The notes beneath the pieces were generated by a model that saw nothing but the letters and a program-made list of their open reading frames with translations, ran no database searches and was not told where the DNA came from. Shown in pieces: positions 9,954 to 16,851 of a stretch of DNA of 64,000 nt; within the stretch, counting starts at the first letter, position 1; each line of letters opens with the position of its first letter. Source of the stretch: Nocardioides albertanoniae (lineage in GTDB: Bacteria; Actinomycetota; Actinomycetes; Propionibacteriales; Nocardioidaceae). Where the stretch lies: the NCBI RefSeq assembly GCF_006716315.1, contig NZ_VFOV01000001.1:4542501-4606500 (forward strand). The letters run 5' to 3'. Made by a program: the position numbers and the translations under genes.

Positions 9954-10439
9954 TTACGGGCCCTCGTGCTCGAGGGCCTCGTTGTATCTGGCCAGCATAC
10001 CGCCGAGTGCATCGATCTCGTCGGGGCTCCAGTCGGCGAGGCGGTCCTCGAAACGTACGCGACGCTCTCGTGTCACCCGGTCGAGCCCCTGGCGCGCCTC
10101 GTCGGTCACCGAGACGAGGCTGGCCCGGCCGTCGTCGGGATCGGGATGACGCTCGAGCAGGCCGAGGTCGGTCATCGACTGCACCGTCCGGCTGACCGCG
10201 CCCTTGTCGAAACCGAGGCCGTCGACCAGGGCCGAAGCCCGCACCGGACCGTGCTCGGCGACCCAGGTCAGCATCAGGTAGCCACCGGGCGGAAGGTCGG
10301 GGTGAAGCATCCGGCCGCGGGCACGCAGCACGCGCTTGCCACGCCACAGGAGCACCCCGATCTCCGCCTCGAGCCGGCTCAGCGACTCGTCGCGGATCTC
10401 CGCACCGCCACCGTCACCGGGCTTGTCCGTGGAGCTCAT
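9954..10439 (-). CDS. MarR family transcriptional regulator
   Basis: 161 residues with the MarR winged helix: an N-terminal helical region, GYLMLTWVAEHGPVRASALVDGLGFDKGAVSRTVQSM (recognition helix) and the wing RHPDPDDGRASLVSVTDEG-like stretch. It is encoded directly after the MFS pump, with ATGA overlap (10436-10439), so it is cotranscribed with its likely target. Two GTTG-N7/8-CAAC sites overlap the pump promoter at 12092-12139 and are the natural candidate operators. Ligand unknown. Confidence 0.88.
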   Translation of the reverse strand: MSSTDKPGDGGGAEIRDESLSRLEAEIGVLLWRGKRVLRARGRMLHPDLPPGGYLMLTWVAEHGPVRASALVDGLGFDKGAVSRTVQSMTDLGLLERHPDPDDGRASLVSVTDEARQGLDRVTRERRVRFEDRLADWSPDEIDALGGMLARYNEALEHEGP

Positions 10440-12067
10440 CGCCGGACGGCTCCCCCGGTCTCGAGCTCGGCGGTGACCTCAGGGGCGGCGGCGTCGACGA
10501 GCACGTCGTCGTTGGTGGTCTTGAGCGGGACCTCCTTGATGGCCACGATCGCGACCAGCGCGATCAGCGCACACGGGAGGGCCACCAGGAACAGGTCGGC
10601 GGTGGCGACGGCGAAAGCGTGCTCGTAGAGGGTCTGCATAGCGCTCGGCATGCTAGTCGGGTCGGCGAGGCCGCCACCCTGGAGGGCCTCGAGCTCGGCG
10701 GGCGTGACCTTGCCGCTGGCGACCAGCTCGGGGACGCCGTCGCTGATGACGTCCTCGACACGGTGGGAGAGCACGGCACCGAGCGCCGCGATGCCCATCG
10801 AGCCGCCCATCGACCGGAAGAAGGCGACGACGGACGACCCGGCGCCCATGTCCTTGTTGGCGAGGTTGTTCTGCACGGCGAGCACGAGGTTCTGGTTGGT
10901 CGCACCGACGCCGAGGCCGACGACGGCCATGAACGCACCGACCACGGCGATGTTGGTCTGCTCGTCGATGGTGCTGAGCAGGAAGAGGCCGATGGGCAGC
11001 ATGATGCCGCCGAAGACCAGGTAGCGCTTCCAGTGGCCGGTGGCGCTGATCAGGCGACCGGTGACCATCCCGGCACCGGAGAGCCCGAGCACCATGCAGA
11101 TCGACATCAGGCCGGCGTGGGTCGGCGTCATGCCGCGCGCGGTCTGGAAGTACTGCTGCAGGTAGACGGTCGCGCCGAACATCCCGGCGCCGACGAAGAA
11201 CGAGGCGATGGTGGCGAGCACCATGGTGCGGTCGCGGAAGAGCCGCAGCGGGATGATCGGCTCCGTGGCATACCTGCCCTCGACCAGGATCGCGAGAGCG
11301 AGCACCACGACGCTGCCGGCAACCAGGGCGTACGAGGTCAGCGAGGTCCACTCGAAGGAGCTGCCGCCCAGGGTGACCCAGATCAGCAGCATCGAGACGC
11401 CGGCCACCAGCAGGAACGCGCCGAGGTAGTCGATGCTGACCTCGCGGCGCACCTGCGGGAGGTGGAGGGTCTTCTGGAGCAGCACGAACGCGACCACGGC
11501 GAACGGCACACCGACGTAGAAGACGCCCGGCCAGCCGAACGGGGAGTCGACGATCACGCCGCCGACGAGCGGCCCGATCACGGTGGCCAGCGCGAAGACC
11601 GCGCCGATGTAGCCCGAGTAGCGGCCGCGCTCACGCGGGGAGACGATCGTCGCGATGATCACCTGGATCAGGGCGACGATGCCGCCCATGCCGAGGCCGG
11701 CGATGACGCGGCCGGTGATGATCACCGGCATCGACGGCGCCAGCCCACAGATCGCCGAGCCGAGGATGAACAGACCCAGCGCGGCCTGGACCAGCACCTT
11801 CTTGTTGTAGAGGTCGGCGAGCTTGCCCCAGATCGGCGTGGTCGCGGTCATCGCCAGCATGCTCGAGACGACGATCCAGGTGTAGCCACCCTGAGTGCCG
11901 CCGAGGTCGGTGACGATCCGCGGCAGGGCGTTGGCGACCGACGTGCTGGACAACATGGCGACGAAGAGCGCCATCAGGAGGCCGGAGAGCACCTCCATGA
12001 TCTGACGGTGGGTCATCTGCGGGGCCGCGGTGGCCTGCGACGACGACTGGGGCGAAGACTCTGACAA
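10436..12067 (-). CDS. MFS drug efflux transporter, DHA2 (14-TM, EmrB/QacA) type
   Basis: Proton-driven exporter of the inner membrane, about 543 residues with roughly 14 hydrophobic segments. Motif A is seen as GKLADLYNKKVLVQ, motif C in the TM5 region as GPLVGGVIVDSPFGW, and ALPRIVTDLGG marks the D1 region. Several in-frame starts exist: the TTG at 12106 would lie upstream of the predicted transcription start (about 12102), so TTG 12067 or TTG 12085 is preferred. Expression is likely to be controlled by the downstream MarR gene and by the leader at 12207-12372. Substrate unknown. Confidence 0.88.
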   Translation of the reverse strand: MSESSPQSSSQATAAPQMTHRQIMEVLSGLLMALFVAMLSSTSVANALPRIVTDLGGTQGGYTWIVVSSMLAMTATTPIWGKLADLYNKKVLVQAALGLFILGSAICGLAPSMPVIITGRVIAGLGMGGIVALIQVIIATIVSPRERGRYSGYIGAVFALATVIGPLVGGVIVDSPFGWPGVFYVGVPFAVVAFVLLQKTLHLPQVRREVSIDYLGAFLLVAGVSMLLIWVTLGGSSFEWTSLTSYALVAGSVVVLALAILVEGRYATEPIIPLRLFRDRTMVLATIASFFVGAGMFGATVYLQQYFQTARGMTPTHAGLMSICMVLGLSGAGMVTGRLISATGHWKRYLVFGGIMLPIGLFLLSTIDEQTNIAVVGAFMAVVGLGVGATNQNLVLAVQNNLANKDMGAGSSVVAFFRSMGGSMGIAALGAVLSHRVEDVISDGVPELVASGKVTPAELEALQGGGLADPTSMPSAMQTLYEHAFAVATADLFLVALPCALIALVAIVAIKEVPLKTTNDDVLVDAAAPEVTAELETGGAVRR

Positions 12068-12091
12068 GTGACGACCGGCTCTCAAGAATTG

Positions 12092-12139
12092 GTTGACGAA
12101 CAGCAACTAATATACGCCGGGTTAGTTGCGATCTACAAC
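12092..12139. promoter_or_regulatory. MFS-marR promoter with paired MarR-type operators
   Basis: On the minus strand, TTGTAG (12138-12133) and TATATT (12114-12109) are 18 bp apart and form a good sigma-70 type promoter. Two short palindromes overlap it: GTTGACGAACAGCAAC at 12092-12107 and GTTGCGATCTACAAC at 12125-12139, both GTTG-N7/8-CAAC. One covers the start site, the other the -35 box, and GCAACTAA/TTAGTTGC also pair across the centre. MarR binding there would block transcription. Confidence 0.65.
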
Positions 12140-12149
12140 TTGTCATCGG

Positions 12150-12198
12150 TCACATCGGTCGCCCATCGGTCGCCCATCGGTCGCCCACGGGTCGCCCG
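12150..12198. repeat. 11-bp tandem repeat (ATCGGTCGCCC)
   Basis: Three exact or near-exact copies of ATCGGTCGCCC follow each other, then a fourth changed copy (ACGGGTCGCCC); a partial copy ATCGGTCAC precedes them. It sits between the leader hairpin and the MFS promoter. It does not encode anything recognisable. Confidence 0.7.
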
Positions 12199-12206
12199 AA
12201 ATGGGA

Positions 12207-12265
12207 CGACCCGCAGGCGGGCCTCTGGCCAACCCGGTGGATGAGTCCGGTACGCCTGCGGGTCG
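12207..12265 (-). terminator. Leader hairpin (candidate attenuator terminator)
   Basis: CGACCCGCAGGCG at 12207-12219 is the exact inverse of 12253-12265, 13 perfect GC-rich pairs with a 33-nt loop. On the minus strand it is followed by GTCCCATTT, only a weak U tract. It lies downstream of the 12-codon leader ORF and upstream of the MFS gene, which is where a leader terminator would be. Confidence 0.5.
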
Positions 12266-12313
12266 GGTGGCTGCTGTTGGATTGCCAGCCCACATCCCTC
12301 GTTGGGGGCGCTG

Positions 12314-12352
12314 CTAGCGAGCAGCCACCTCACGCATCCAATCGTTCTTCAT
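12314..12352 (-). CDS. 12-residue leader peptide of the MFS/MarR unit
   Basis: ATG 12352 to TAG 12314 encodes MKNDWMREVAAR. It is preceded at 12359-12372 by AAAGGAGGTGATCC, complementary to nearly the whole 3' end of 16S rRNA, far stronger than any other ribosome site in the window. Codons 8-11 contain GGTGGCTGCT (12329-12320), which is the exact inverse of 12275-12266 directly beside the leader hairpin. A gene this short with so strong a start is best read as a regulatory uORF. A candidate promoter lies just upstream. Confidence 0.6.
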   Translation of the reverse strand: MKNDWMREVAAR

Positions 12353-12385
12353 CTGATCGGATCACCTCCTTTCCCGTGTGCCTCA

Positions 12386-12415
12386 ACGGTAGGCGTCTGG
12401 GGGTGGCGGGTTCAA
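12386..12415 (-). promoter_or_regulatory. Candidate promoter of the leader ORF
   Basis: TTGAAC (12415-12410), an 18-bp spacer and TACCGT (12391-12386) fit an actinobacterial housekeeping promoter. Transcription would begin near 12379, about 27 nt before the leader ATG, after the end of the ABC transporter gene at 12442. Confidence 0.5.
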
Positions 12416-12441
12416 AGGGTTTATTTCACGGAGCGATCAGC

Positions 12442-14439
12442 TCATGCGGTCGCCGGCTCCTCCTCCACGATCGCGTGCCGGAACTGCGACCGGTAGAGCT
12501 CGGCGTAGGCGCCCTCCGCCTCGAGCAGCTCGGCGTGGTTGCCCTGCTCGACGATCGCGCCGTCACGCATGACCAGGATCAGGTCGGCGTCGCGGATCGT
12601 GGAGAGCCGGTGGGCGATCACGAACGACGTACGGTCCGAGCGAAGCGCGGCCATCGCGTGCTGCAGCAGCAGCTCGGTGCGGGTGTCGACCGACGAGGTG
12701 GCTTCGTCGAGGATCAGCAGCGACGGCTCGGCGAGGAAGGCTCGCGCGATGGTGACCAGCTGCCGCTCGCCGGCGGAGAGGTTGCCGCCGCCGTCTGTGA
12801 TCAGGGTGTCGTAGCCGTCGGGCAGCGAGTGCACGAACCGGTCGACGTACGTCGCGGTGGCTGCCTCCAGCACCTCCTCCTCGGTGGCTGACGGCCGCCC
12901 GTAGAGGATGTTGTCGCGGATCGTGCCCTCGAAGAGCCAGGTGTCCTGGAGCACCGTGCCGGTGCGGGCACGCAGGTCGGAGCGCGGGATCGAGGCGATG
13001 TCGGCGCCGTCGAGAGTGATCCGGCCGCTGTCGAGCTCGTAGAACCGCATGATCAGGTTGACCAGCGTCGTCTTGCCGGCACCTGTCGGACCGACGATCG
13101 CCACGGTCTGACCCGGACGGGCCACCAGGGAGAGATCCTCGATGAGCGGCTTGTGCTCGTCGTAGGAGAACGAGACGTGCTCGAAGCGGACCTCACCGGC
13201 ACCGGCGCCCCCGGTGCGCGGGGCGCCGGCGTCGGGCGACTCCTCCTCGGCGTCGAGGAGCTCGAAGACCCGCTCGGCCGAGGCGACGCCCGACTGGAGC
13301 AGGTTCATCATCGAGGCGAGGGTGGTGATCGGCTGGGTGAACTGCCGCGAGTACTGGACGAACGCCTGCAGCTCGCCCAGGCTCAGCGCTCCGCTCGCGA
13401 CGCGGAGCGAGCCGACCACGCAGACCACCACGAACATGAGGTTGCCGACGAACATCATCAGCGGCATCAGGATCCCGCTGATGAACTGGGCCTTGAAGGC
13501 CGCGCCGAAGAGCTTGTCGTTCTCCTCGGCGAACGTCTTCTCGACCTCCTCCTGGCGGCCGAAGACCTTGACCAGGTCGTGGCCGGAGAAGGTCTCCTCG
13601 ATGTGACCGTTGAGCTTGCCGGTGTGACGCCACTGGGCCACGAACTGACCCTGCGACCGCTTCATCACCGTGCGCGTGACGAGCACCGAGACCGGCACCG
13701 CGAGCAGCGCGATCAGAGCAAGCACCGGGCTGATCCAGAACATCATGAACAAGACCGTGACCAGCGTGAACAGCGCGGTCAGCACCTGGCTGAACGTCTG
13801 CTGCAGCGTCTGGCTGATGTTGTCGATGTCGTTGGTGACCCGGCTGAGCAGCTCGCCGCGGGGCTGCTTGTCGAAGTAGGACAGCGGCACGCTGTGCACC
13901 TTCTTCTCGACGTCCTCACGCAGGCCCTTCACGGTGCCTTGTACGACCGAGTTGAGGATCCAGCCCTGCACGAAGGAGAGCAGCGACGCGACCAGGTAGA
14001 CGACGAGCACGATCGCCAGCGCGTTGCGCAGCGCGTCGAAGTCGACGCCCTGCCCCGGGGTGACGTAGTCCATCCCCGAGAGCATGTCGGCGAGCTTGTC
14101 GTCACCCTTCGCACGCAGACCCTCGACGGCCTCCTCCTGGGTGACTCCAGCGGGCAGCTCCTTGGAGAAGATGCCGCCGAAGATGATGTTGGTGGCCTTG
14201 CCGAGCAGCCACGGGCCGAGCGACATCAGCGTCACGCTGACCGCGGCCAGGACGATCGTCACCACGGCGTGCACCTTGAACGGCGCCATCCGGCGCAGCA
14301 GGCGCTTGGCCGAGGGACCGAAGCTCATCGCCTTGTCGCCGACCGAGCCACCGGCGCCCATCCCGGGCCCGCCGGGACGTACGATCCGCTCGGTCTTCTT
14401 CATCTGGCCGTTCTCCTGGCCGCTCTTCTGGTCGCTCAT
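12442..14439 (-). CDS. ABC exporter half-transporter, canonical-site subunit (Rv1272c/Rv1273c type)
   Basis: 665 residues: a type IV exporter membrane domain of six segments (about 50-380) and a nucleotide-binding domain with Walker A GPTGAGKTT, Q-loop VLQDTWLF, Walker B LLILDEATSSVD with the catalytic Glu, and switch His in FVIAHRLSTI. Its signature motif is altered to NLSAGERQL instead of LSGGQ. It pairs with the half-transporter just upstream (ATGA overlap at 14436-14439): this subunit supplies the working Walker B and His, the partner supplies a normal signature. Likely a multidrug or lipid exporter. Confidence 0.9.
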   Translation of the reverse strand: MSDQKSGQENGQMKKTERIVRPGGPGMGAGGSVGDKAMSFGPSAKRLLRRMAPFKVHAVVTIVLAAVSVTLMSLGPWLLGKATNIIFGGIFSKELPAGVTQEEAVEGLRAKGDDKLADMLSGMDYVTPGQGVDFDALRNALAIVLVVYLVASLLSFVQGWILNSVVQGTVKGLREDVEKKVHSVPLSYFDKQPRGELLSRVTNDIDNISQTLQQTFSQVLTALFTLVTVLFMMFWISPVLALIALLAVPVSVLVTRTVMKRSQGQFVAQWRHTGKLNGHIEETFSGHDLVKVFGRQEEVEKTFAEENDKLFGAAFKAQFISGILMPLMMFVGNLMFVVVCVVGSLRVASGALSLGELQAFVQYSRQFTQPITTLASMMNLLQSGVASAERVFELLDAEEESPDAGAPRTGGAGAGEVRFEHVSFSYDEHKPLIEDLSLVARPGQTVAIVGPTGAGKTTLVNLIMRFYELDSGRITLDGADIASIPRSDLRARTGTVLQDTWLFEGTIRDNILYGRPSATEEEVLEAATATYVDRFVHSLPDGYDTLITDGGGNLSAGERQLVTIARAFLAEPSLLILDEATSSVDTRTELLLQHAMAALRSDRTSFVIAHRLSTIRDADLILVMRDGAIVEQGNHAELLEAEGAYAELYRSQFRHAIVEEEPATA

Positions 14440-16184
14440 GCTGCGGCCTCCTCTGCGCTGAGCTGGGAGGAGACGATCTCCTGATAGGTCTCGTTGTCGG
14501 CGAGCAGCTGCTCGTGGGTGCCCTCGCCGACGATGACTCCGTCCTCGAGCACGAGGATCTTGTCGGCGTCTCGGATGGTCGAGACCCGCTGCGCGACCAC
14601 GATCACCGTGGCGTTGCGCGTCTCCGGCGCGAGCGCGGCGCGGAGGCGGGCGTCGGTGGCGACGTCGAGCGCTGAGAACGAGTCGTCGAAGAGATAGATG
14701 TCGGGCCGTCTCACCAGGGCCCTGGCGATCGCCAGGCGCTGCCGCTGACCGCCCGAGACGTTGGTGCCGCCCTGGTCGATCTCGGCGTCGAGGCCGGTGC
14801 CGTCCTCGGGCGCCATCTTGGCGACGAAGTCGCTGGCCTGGGCCACCTCGAGCGCGTGCCAGAGCTCCTCGTCGGTCGCGTCCGGCTTGCCGTGGAGCAG
14901 GTTGGAGCGGACGGTGCCGGTGAAGAGGAAGGCCTTCTGCGGCACCAGCCCGAGGGTGCTGCGCAGCGTGGCCGGGTCGAGGTCGCGTACGTCGATCCCG
15001 CCGACCTCCACGACACCCGCCGTCGCGTCGAAGAGCCGCGGCACGAGGCCCAGAAGGGTCGTCTTCCCGGCACCGGTGGAGCCGATGATCGCGACGGTCT
15101 GCCCCGGCCGGGCCTCGAAGGTGAGGTCCTGGAGCACGGGGTGGTCCGCGCCGGGGTAGGTGAATCCGGCGCCCCGCATGTCGACGTGACCGTGACGCGT
15201 GATCTCGGTGACTCCCGCCACGGGCGGGGTCACGCTGGTCTCGGTGTCGAGCACCTCGGCGATCCGGTCGGCGCAGACGGCCGCACGCGGCACCTGCATG
15301 AGCATGAACGTGCCCATCATGATCGACATCAGGATCTGCATCAGATACTGCAGGAAGGCCGTCAGCGGGCCGACCTGCATCTCGCCGTTGTCGACCCGGA
15401 TGCCACCGAACCAGATCACCGCGACGCTGGCGACGTTGATGACCAGCATCATCACCGGGAACATCGTCGACATCCAGCGTCCGGCCCGCAGCGCGACGTC
15501 GGTGAGCTCGTCGTTGGCCTTCGCGAAGCGCTCGGTCTCCTGACGCTCACGGACGAACGCCCGGATCACCCGGATGCCGGTGATCTGCTCGCGCAGGATG
15601 CGGTTGACCGCGTCGATGCGCTCCTGCACCTTGCGGAAGTTGGGCACCATCCCGCGCACGATGACCGCCATCGAGACGAGCAGCGCGGGGATCACGACCG
15701 CGAGCAGCCAGGAGAGCTCGGCGTCCTCCCGGATCGCCATCACGACGCCGCCGACCATCATCATCGGCACCATCACCGCGAGCGTGCAGGTGAGCACGGC
15801 GAGCATCTGCACCTGCTGCACGTCGTTGGTGGTGCGGGTGATCAGCGACGGGGCGCCGAAACGGCCGACCTCGCGGGCGCTGAACGAGCCGACCTTCGCG
15901 AAGATCGCCGACCGCAGGTCACGCCCGAAGCTCATCGAGCTGCGCGCGGCGAAGTAGACGCTGGCGATCGAGCACAGGATCTGCACGAGCGCGACGCCGA
16001 GCATGATCGCGCCGATCTGGAGGATGTAGCCGGTGTCGCCCTCGGCCACGCCGTTGTCGATGATGTCGGCGTTGAGGCTCGGCAGCAGCATGAACGCGGT
16101 CGTCGAGAAGAGCTGCAAGACCGCGATGACGACCAGGAACTTCTTGTAGGGGAGCAGATAGTCCCGCAACAGTCGGAGGAGCAT
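14436..16184 (-). CDS. ABC exporter half-transporter, degenerate-site subunit
   Basis: 582 residues: six membrane segments (about 15-300) and a nucleotide-binding domain. Walker A GSTGAGKTT and signature VSGGQRQR are normal. After Walker B it has LFDDSFSALD, with Asp where the catalytic Glu should be, and VVAQRVSTI, with Gln in place of the switch His. This is the known pattern of heterodimeric exporters with one inactive ATP site, as in TM287/288 or BmrCD. ATG 16184 follows the TetR stop with no gap. Confidence 0.9.
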   Translation of the reverse strand: MLLRLLRDYLLPYKKFLVVIAVLQLFSTTAFMLLPSLNADIIDNGVAEGDTGYILQIGAIMLGVALVQILCSIASVYFAARSSMSFGRDLRSAIFAKVGSFSAREVGRFGAPSLITRTTNDVQQVQMLAVLTCTLAVMVPMMMVGGVVMAIREDAELSWLLAVVIPALLVSMAVIVRGMVPNFRKVQERIDAVNRILREQITGIRVIRAFVRERQETERFAKANDELTDVALRAGRWMSTMFPVMMLVINVASVAVIWFGGIRVDNGEMQVGPLTAFLQYLMQILMSIMMGTFMLMQVPRAAVCADRIAEVLDTETSVTPPVAGVTEITRHGHVDMRGAGFTYPGADHPVLQDLTFEARPGQTVAIIGSTGAGKTTLLGLVPRLFDATAGVVEVGGIDVRDLDPATLRSTLGLVPQKAFLFTGTVRSNLLHGKPDATDEELWHALEVAQASDFVAKMAPEDGTGLDAEIDQGGTNVSGGQRQRLAIARALVRRPDIYLFDDSFSALDVATDARLRAALAPETRNATVIVVAQRVSTIRDADKILVLEDGVIVGEGTHEQLLADNETYQEIVSSQLSAEEAAA

Positions 16185-16814
16185 TCAGGGAGTCTCTCTG
16201 TTCAAGATGCCGCCGAGCAGCACGTCGATGACGTCCTCGCTCTTCAGCGGCTGGTTCGTTCGGTTCAGACCGGGGAGCCAGGCCCCGATCGTGAGGCTGC
16301 GCAGCACCATCGCGGCCTTCCAGGGCGTGAGTCGCAGCTCGGCTGCGTGTGGCTCGAAGACCAGCCGGGCGAGATCGTCGATCAAGGTCTTGTTGGCCTC
16401 GATCAACGTGTTCGGCGAACCGCCGGGCGGGCGCAGGCCGTCGTGCCCTGCCGCCTCGGCCAGCGCCGAGCGCACCGACATCATGATGATGAGGTTGCGC
16501 TGGGTCGTCTCGGCGAGCAGGTCGATCACGGCCCGGAGCTTGCCCTCGATGTCGGGCTCGCCCTCGACGACCTCTGCCATGACATGAGCTGTCGATGACG
16601 GGTTGAAGACGTTCTCGGCCACCGCACAGTAGATCTCCCGCTTGTCGCGGAAGTGCCGGAAGATCGTGCCCTCGGCGACCCCGGCGGCCTCGGCGATCAG
16701 CTTCGTGGTCGTCGCCGAGCCGTGCTCGACCAGGAGCGCCTCGGTGGCCGCGACGATCGCGGCACGTCGGTCTGCGGCGGGAATCGGCTTGGCCCGCGTA
16801 CGTCGTTCTTCCAC
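16185..16814 (-). CDS. TetR family regulator of the ABC exporter
   Basis: About 209 residues. The N-terminal HTH reads RRAAIVAATEALLVEHGSAT, then IAEAAGVAEGTIFRHFRDKREIY; the C-terminal part is a helical ligand domain. It is the first gene of an operon with the two exporter halves. The upstream GTG at 16841 falls inside the operator, before the predicted transcription start, so GTG 16814 is preferred: it lies eight bases after TAGGAT and would be read from a leaderless mRNA. The operator at 16830-16849 implies self-control. Confidence 0.88.
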   Translation of the reverse strand: MEERRTRAKPIPAADRRAAIVAATEALLVEHGSATTTKLIAEAAGVAEGTIFRHFRDKREIYCAVAENVFNPSSTAHVMAEVVEGEPDIEGKLRAVIDLLAETTQRNLIIMMSVRSALAEAAGHDGLRPPGGSPNTLIEANKTLIDDLARLVFEPHAAELRLTPWKAAMVLRSLTIGAWLPGLNRTNQPLKSEDVIDVLLGGILNRETP

Positions 16815-16822
16815 AGCGCCAG

Positions 16823-16851
16823 ATCCTATGTGAGTGAGCACTCACTCACAA
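16823..16851 (-). promoter_or_regulatory. tetR promoter with 20-bp perfect palindromic operator
   Basis: TTGTGA (16851-16846), 17-bp spacer, TAGGAT (16828-16823). Between them GTGAGTGAG-CA-CTCACTCAC (16830-16849) is a 9+2+9 perfect inverted repeat, the typical form of a TetR site. Occupancy would block RNA polymerase completely. Confidence 0.8.

Follow-up and report, generated by a model that had tools for sequence, protein, structure and literature searches.

Conserved translation geometry in the small RNA family RF02471, examined from a copy upstream of an efflux gene in Nocardioides albertanoniae

Between the stop codon of an ABC exporter gene (position 12442) and a DHA2-type major facilitator superfamily (MFS) gene, the minus strand of a 64,000-nucleotide (nt) stretch of Nocardioides albertanoniae DNA (contig NZ_VFOV01000001.1, GCF_006716315.1; the whole stretch is called the window, and coordinates refer to it) carries a promoter, a 14-nt Shine-Dalgarno (SD) sequence, a 12-codon open reading frame (ORF) and two long stems. 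An initial annotation had read these parts, all of which we found where it had placed them, as a candidate attenuator that matches no known leader and lets stalled ribosomes switch the MFS gene. Does this element control the pump, or is it an RNA gene of its own, and what is the short ORF for? As an explanation of the locus as a whole, we favour, with somewhat better than even confidence, a stand-alone gene for a small RNA (sRNA) of family RF02471 that lies upstream of the MFS gene by chance.

Results

Identity of the element

A cmscan search placed the element in Rfam family RF02471 (Ms_IGR-5), with 97.5 bits against a gathering cut-off of 45 and over the full length of the model (1–184). As far as Rfam goes, this contradicts the statement that no known leader matches. 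Model position 1 coincides with the transcription start at 12379 inferred in the initial annotation, and because the family spans all of 12379–12201, the stretch is not a chance pattern. Folding of 12379–12140 gave a z-score of −4.17 against 200 shuffled sequences, none of which was as stable. Rfam files the family as an actinobacterial sRNA, first from Mycobacterium smegmatis. The genome itself contains one full match, and 126 of 145 genomes of relatives carry the family, almost always in a single copy. One partial hit (G115) was dropped and the remaining 125 relatives were analysed. Li et al. (2013) is reportedly the founding paper on Ms_IGR-5.

A reading frame of fixed geometry

The first SD sequence (SD1), AAAGGAGGTGATCC, is complementary to GGATCACCTCCTTT, the 3′ end of 16S rRNA as recovered in 7 of the 13 genomes searched; with the pattern used (at most one mismatch), this end was not found in the window's own assembly. 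AAAGGAGGTGATCC occurs once in the 4.97-Mb genome. Its core GGAGGTGNTCC is present in all 125 relatives and is followed, after 4–6 nt, by a start codon (115 ATG, 5 GTG and 5 TTG). The ORF has 12 codons in 123 relatives and 13 in the other two. Seven codons precede the pair GAG GTG in every relative; three codons and the stop follow it in 123, and four codons in two. Neither GAG nor GTG was replaced by a synonymous codon in any relative, while codon 7 may be CGT, AGT or TGT and codon 6 ACG, ACT, ATG or ACA; it is therefore the RNA, and not the peptide, that is kept. Consistent with this, the codon tables revealed residues that change where the RNA permits and third bases that stay put, and did not reveal amino-acid conservation beyond the nucleotide constraint. 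The sequence GAGGUG, here called SD2, matches the anti-SD sequence over 6 nt and, with codon 12 in the ribosomal P site, lies at a gap of 6 nt, where it could pair with the anti-SD of the ribosome. Judged from these codon patterns, the ORF keeps a geometry rather than a peptide, which is new for RF02471.

The same spacing was observed in more distant copies. Three codons separate GAG GTG from the stop in all of the 75 named loci listed, for which the search pattern required GTGAGGTG. GAG GTG, three codons and a stop were also present in all 20 weak matches (5 barely above the cut-off and 15 below it) taken from 42 genomes of other classes of the phylum, and no in-frame stop lies ahead of GAG in these copies. 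The spacing recurred in 19 of 19 loci from two other phyla, 18 recognized by script and one (L364) by reading. At L364, L137–L139 and L157, which the script missed, the SD1 or ORF context differs slightly and the layout on reading is the same.

Among the 20 copies from other classes, 11 possess no in-frame ATG, GTG or TTG and have CTG, ATT, ATC or ACG in the place of the start codon. These codons stand behind a very strong SD sequence (L327, L329, L330, L332, L335, L337, L338, L341, L342, L344 and L346).

That the ORF is translated, as the initial annotation assumed, is suggested by its strong conservation in relatives and by ribosome profiling reads on the M. abscessus and M. smegmatis homologues, reported in the available passages of PMC4974804. 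Further homologues are documented in the parts of the literature accessible here, with a transcription unit of mapped start and end in Streptomyces avermitilis (PMC8780764), RNA sequencing evidence in S. lividans (PMC8079986), and an overlap of M. smegmatis IGR-5 with ncMSMEG15794c (PMC10454040).

A corrected fold

The two exact pairings proposed in the initial annotation, between strands A and C and between strands D and E (Table 1), are present in the sequence and display covariation, so that both ORF and stems, whose conservation had been set as a test, are kept. We examined the fold in an alignment of 49 sequences, consisting of the window copy and 48 of the 75 named loci and leaving out near-duplicates, five loci with an unsure terminator end and non-actinobacterial loci. 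Together with a pseudoknot in which GGAYN in ORF codons 5–6 pairs with NRUCC in the loop within D:E, these helices had 93.9% of their cells paired and two-sided changes in 20 of 28 pairs. None of 500 shuffles reached the three-helix set in any measure, and versions slid along the alignment paired in 35–46%. The pseudoknot on its own had 22 two-sided cells against 8.7±2.2 in shuffles, and exceeded all 500 in paired cells, two-sided cells and covariation score. The helix that Rfam draws between the SD sequence and positions 55–60 received no support from covariation (151 of 500 shuffles did as well) and was rejected. By the covariation evidence, helix A:C and the pseudoknot are thus a corrected fold for RF02471 and are new here.

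Predicted folding of 195 copies suggested that the ribosome could alter this structure: the median unpaired probability of strand C rose from.02 in the free RNA to.35 in an RNA whose stop codon is covered by a ribosome. Many copies elsewhere have a U-tract after strand E, whereas the window copy has just a short T run. The third pairing of the initial annotation (12288–12276 with 12235–12227), which would exclude the others, does occur in the window. In five near relatives with an identical ORF, in which it was checked, 6, 7, 5, 8 and 7 of its 9 pairs are kept, with no two-sided change.

A promoter of the WhiB7/WblC type

The motif of WblC promoters is GAAAWY, 3 bp, TKGMNN, 16–19 bp and TANNNT, and mycobacterial WhiB7 promoters have a matching arrangement (available passages of PMC7157823 and PMC3905903, respectively). 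RF02471 promoters share with these an A/T box placed 3 bp ahead of the −35 element, TTG, the spacing of 16–19 bp and TANNNT. In the window, the hexamer ATAAAC at this distance matches GAAAWY at four of six positions. Among 195 actinobacterial copies, TANNNT was present at the matching position in 193 and TTG in 172, and the A/T fraction at the positions 5–8 bp upstream of −35 was.85,.99,.99 and.84, with flanking positions at.39 or below. At least four matches to GAAAWY were found in 173 of the 195 (89%), compared with 42% of the 107 further TTG-17/18-TANNNT sites that these loci contain and with 3.6% in random sequence. By this comparison, copies in the organism's own class carry a WhiB7/WblC-type promoter box, a feature new here. 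No such box was seen by eye in the 45 nt that precede the 20 copies found in other classes. The N. albertanoniae genome has eight Wbl matches, three of them with an AT-hook.

Taking this promoter into account, WhiB7/WblC probably induces the RNA gene in the presence of ribosome-targeting drugs. The link to antibiotics in the initial annotation thus survives as a likely tie to such drugs through the promoter, and the switching of a pump is unsupported. In published work, WblC governs four independent intergenic noncoding RNAs (ncRNAs), which the available passages of PMC7157823 do not name. In M. abscessus, loss of whiB7 lowers ncRNA1 about 100-fold; this RNA is convergent to the adjacent gene and has a chromatin immunoprecipitation peak at 736,028 (PMC10727445, likewise in part). 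Three Mycobacterium-group genomes carry RF02471 on the plus strand at 646–696 kb, and from these positions ncRNA1 may be the RF02471 RNA. The name Ms_IGR-5 does not appear in the accessible text of PMC7157823 or PMC10727445, and no publication linking Ms_IGR-5 to WhiB7 was found in the literature searched here, as far as its available passages go.

Distribution

RF02471 was detected in 70 of 396 genomes in a survey of the phylum (35 over the cut-off) and in 180 of 198 genomes of the Mycobacterium group, the genus being read from the named loci. In two other phyla, matches occurred in 42 of 132 genomes (25 over the cut-off) and in 6 of 198 (none over). Of at least 119 named matches, 80 were listed, and five without the right ORF (L163, L166, L169, L185 and L192) were dropped to leave 75. 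Among those listed, cmscan confirmed copies in Zixibacteria (55.9 bits), Spirochaetia (29.4 bits) and Nitrospirae (29.5 bits), as well as in an unassigned bacterium (39.7 bits). A candidate from Rokubacteria was not listed by cmscan and had 16.4 bits (E 0.18) at the best place in its genome. On the strength of these matches, the family extends beyond Actinomycetota to at least three phyla, which is new here. A phage or plasmid element was considered and rejected; blastn of the window element gave no match in the plasmid or phage collections, and seven pattern hits in viral contigs lacked the layout on inspection.

Neighbouring genes

If the RNA regulated the MFS gene, as first proposed, that gene should stay downstream on the same strand. 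Of the 125 relatives, 62 had a tblastn match to it no more than 1.5 kb downstream; these were 62 of 87 members of the genus and none of 38 members of other genera. One of the 25 genus members without a match (G034) has just 192 nt of downstream sequence. By crude ORF calling, in which ORFs overlapping the end of the element were included, the next gene was on the same or the opposite strand in 69 and 17 cases in the genus (n=86), and in 6 and 32 in other members of the order (n=38). The corresponding figures were 35 and 34 for the 69 named actinobacterial loci listed, 4 and 0 for five named others, and 5 and 10 for 15 loci from two other phyla. Palindromic, operator-like DNA follows the terminator at 14 of 15 MFS loci examined (no control set). 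In the window, the listed TTG start of the MFS gene falls within such a palindrome, so its true start probably lies downstream. Because the neighbours are not conserved and the MFS genes have palindromes behind the terminator, the RNA forms a separate transcription unit that has a promoter and a terminator of its own, and the MFS gene is not part of the RNA system.

The element lies in a compact exporter cluster on the minus strand (9954–16841), in which genes for TetR, two ABC exporter halves, the RNA, the DHA2 MFS and MarR follow one another. The ABC pair stays beside the RNA in many relatives, with its orientation altered in some. Between terminator and MFS palindrome (12197–12140) there are several copies of a short tandem repeat, GGGCGACCGAT.

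Table 1. Positions of the RNA element, its parts and the adjoining gene in the window
Feature	Position	Strand	Details and basis
RNA element, RF02471 Ms_IGR-5	12201..12379	-	97.5 bits, model 1–184 (cmscan)
A/T box AAATAAAC, upstream of −35	12419..12426	-	compared with WblC motif
Promoter	12386..12415	-	−35 TTGAAC 12415–12410, 18-nt spacer, −10 TACCGT 12391–12386, predicted start 12379
SD1 AAAGGAGGTGATCC	12359..12372	-	exact 14-nt complement of 16S rRNA 3′ end
12-codon ORF MKNDWMREVAAR, stop TAG	12314..12352	-	sequence and relatives
SD2 GAGGTG, codons 8–9, three codons before stop	12326..12331	-	GAG GTG in 125/125 relatives, spacing in 123/125
Pseudoknot 5′ strand GGATG, ORF codons 5–6	12335..12339	-	92.7% of cells paired
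Pseudoknot 3′ strand CATCC, loop inside terminator hairpin	12239..12243	-	pairs with 12335..12339
Strand A of helix A:C, ORF codons 8–11	12320..12329	-	96.3% of cells paired; two-sided changes in 6/10 pairs
Strand C of helix A:C, directly 5′ of terminator	12266..12275	-	covariation count
Conserved AATCC motif beside strand C	12279..12283	-	seen by eye in alignment and loci
Strand D, 5′ arm of terminator hairpin	12253..12265	-	D:E 92.4% paired; two-sided changes in 12/13 pairs
Strand E, 3′ arm of terminator hairpin	12207..12219	-	covariation count
Palindrome GCAACTAA-N11-TTAGTTGC, perfect, operator-like, between terminator and MFS coding part	12103..12129	-	sequence
DHA2-type MFS efflux gene, adjoining the RNA	10436..12106	-	ORF and homology

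Discussion

How could such a layout work? On balance, we consider it probable that the RF02471 RNA is a translation-stress RNA and that the ribosomes on its ORF determine how it folds. From 5′ to 3′ it consists of SD1, the start codon, seven codons, GAGGUG (SD2), three codons and the stop, followed by the terminator. In the ribosome-free RNA, the ORF from codon 5 onward can be held in the pseudoknot (codons 5–6) and in helix A:C. Upon exposure to ribosome-targeting drugs, WhiB7/WblC would induce the gene, SD1 would load a ribosome, and the moving ribosome would open the pseudoknot and then A:C. Once codon 12 occupies the P site and the stop codon the A site, SD2 would come within pairing reach of the anti-SD, and this pairing would slow release or retain the 30S subunit. 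Since the ribosome would open both structures and be held at the stop, two exclusive forms would arise, a ribosome-free form with strand C hidden and a ribosome-held form with strand C open. The least certain step is the output. Most likely, the RNA would report on ribosomes, or buffer their state, when translation is stressed. It might keep hold of 30S subunits, or else strand C and the AAUCC motif might be accessible to a target in just one of the two forms. More tentatively, the family might be a multi-phylum holder or gauge of ribosomes, in which a stretch of 14–18 nt complementary to the 16S tail loads the ribosome, the tiny ORF moves it by about one ribosome length to the stop codon and SD2, at its fixed distance, holds it there reversibly, with induction by WhiB7 in actinomycetes exposed to translation-targeting antibiotics; we regard this wider proposal as doubtful.

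Several points count against the translation-stress reading, which is drawn here from sequence analysis. The search pattern for the named loci required GTGAGGTG, and therefore only the spacing is independent evidence in those loci. Translation of the 11 copies with a non-standard codon at the start position is hypothetical because they lack a standard start codon. The numbers of pseudoknot pairs and pair types with two-sided change are matched by 331 and 294 of 500 shuffles; three of its five pairs are nearly invariant, and of the two that vary, one is unpaired in 16 of 49 sequences. A further helix over the stop codon, B:B′, has 77.8% of its cells paired and weak covariation. SD1 is largely paired in the thermodynamic fold (median unpaired.33 in the 195 copies), and is therefore a poor fit to an always-open loading site. 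In addition, two 3.3-Mb genomes of the Mycobacterium group (L304 and L305) have decayed copies that have lost SD1 and the GAGGTG context. These two are the smallest complete genomes examined in that group.

An ordinary trans-acting sRNA, in which strand C and AAUCC bind target mRNAs and the ORF is incidental or merely stabilizing, seems unlikely to us. The Rfam class, the stand-alone position and the conserved unpaired motif next to strand C would agree with it. However, the geometry of the ORF is the most constant part of the RNA across phyla, and strand C is held in A:C; no target search was made.

We find it rather improbable that the element is a ribosome-controlled attenuator, in which a ribosome stalled on the ORF would block termination and let RNA polymerase read into the pump gene. 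The ORF, which precedes the terminator in all 125 relatives, the A:C stem and the terminator do resemble an attenuator, some drug efflux pumps belong to the MFS, and the MFS gene follows directly on the same strand here and in most members of the genus. Nevertheless, the RNA and its terminator persist where a convergent or unrelated gene comes next, the MFS gene has its own operator-like DNA beyond the terminator, and the third pairing is eroded in the five near relatives, no conserved pairing that excludes D:E having been found in a search that was not exhaustive. As the function of the family, control of the MFS gene was rejected because that gene is not kept downstream; an extra role on this pump within this genus may exist.

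A short mRNA for a functional 12-residue peptide is highly improbable and was rejected on the codon patterns, since the in-frame ORF of nearly fixed length and the ribosome reads on it (PMC4974804, in part) are outweighed by residues 2–4 and the last three varying freely, by the dominance of third-base and RNA-level constraint, and by the non-standard starts of distant copies.

Leaders that respond to ribosome-targeting drugs offer a comparison for the translation-stress RNA. Those of bmrCD, msrD and Escherichia coli toiL, as described in the passages available, are similar in having a short ORF, a stem over the end of the ORF, a terminator and a link to such drugs, but they control the next gene, and RF02471 keeps no next gene. 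Dual-function or translated sRNAs such as SgrS/SgrT and RNAIII combine a small RNA with a translated ORF; unlike these, RF02471 keeps the position of the ORF and the distance from SD2 to the stop, and not the peptide. To our knowledge, no described RNA class works as a reversible holder or gauge of ribosomes.

RF02471 was known before as a family; the ribosome geometry, the corrected fold, the stress-type promoter and the multi-phylum reach are new. In at least three phyla, a catalogued sRNA of unexplained function has the same invariant translation geometry, and its actinomycete copies have the type of promoter that governs intrinsic resistance to ribosome-targeting drugs. Both the published consensus fold, whose first helix, in contrast to A:C and the pseudoknot, is without covariation, and the taxonomic label of the family, which is not confined to Actinobacteria, are corrected here. 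If the translation-stress reading is true, these bacteria would have a general device, made of RNA, for measuring or holding ribosomes during antibiotic stress, and the fixed distance between SD2 and the stop codon would provide a direct, testable handle on how slow termination or recycling is sensed.
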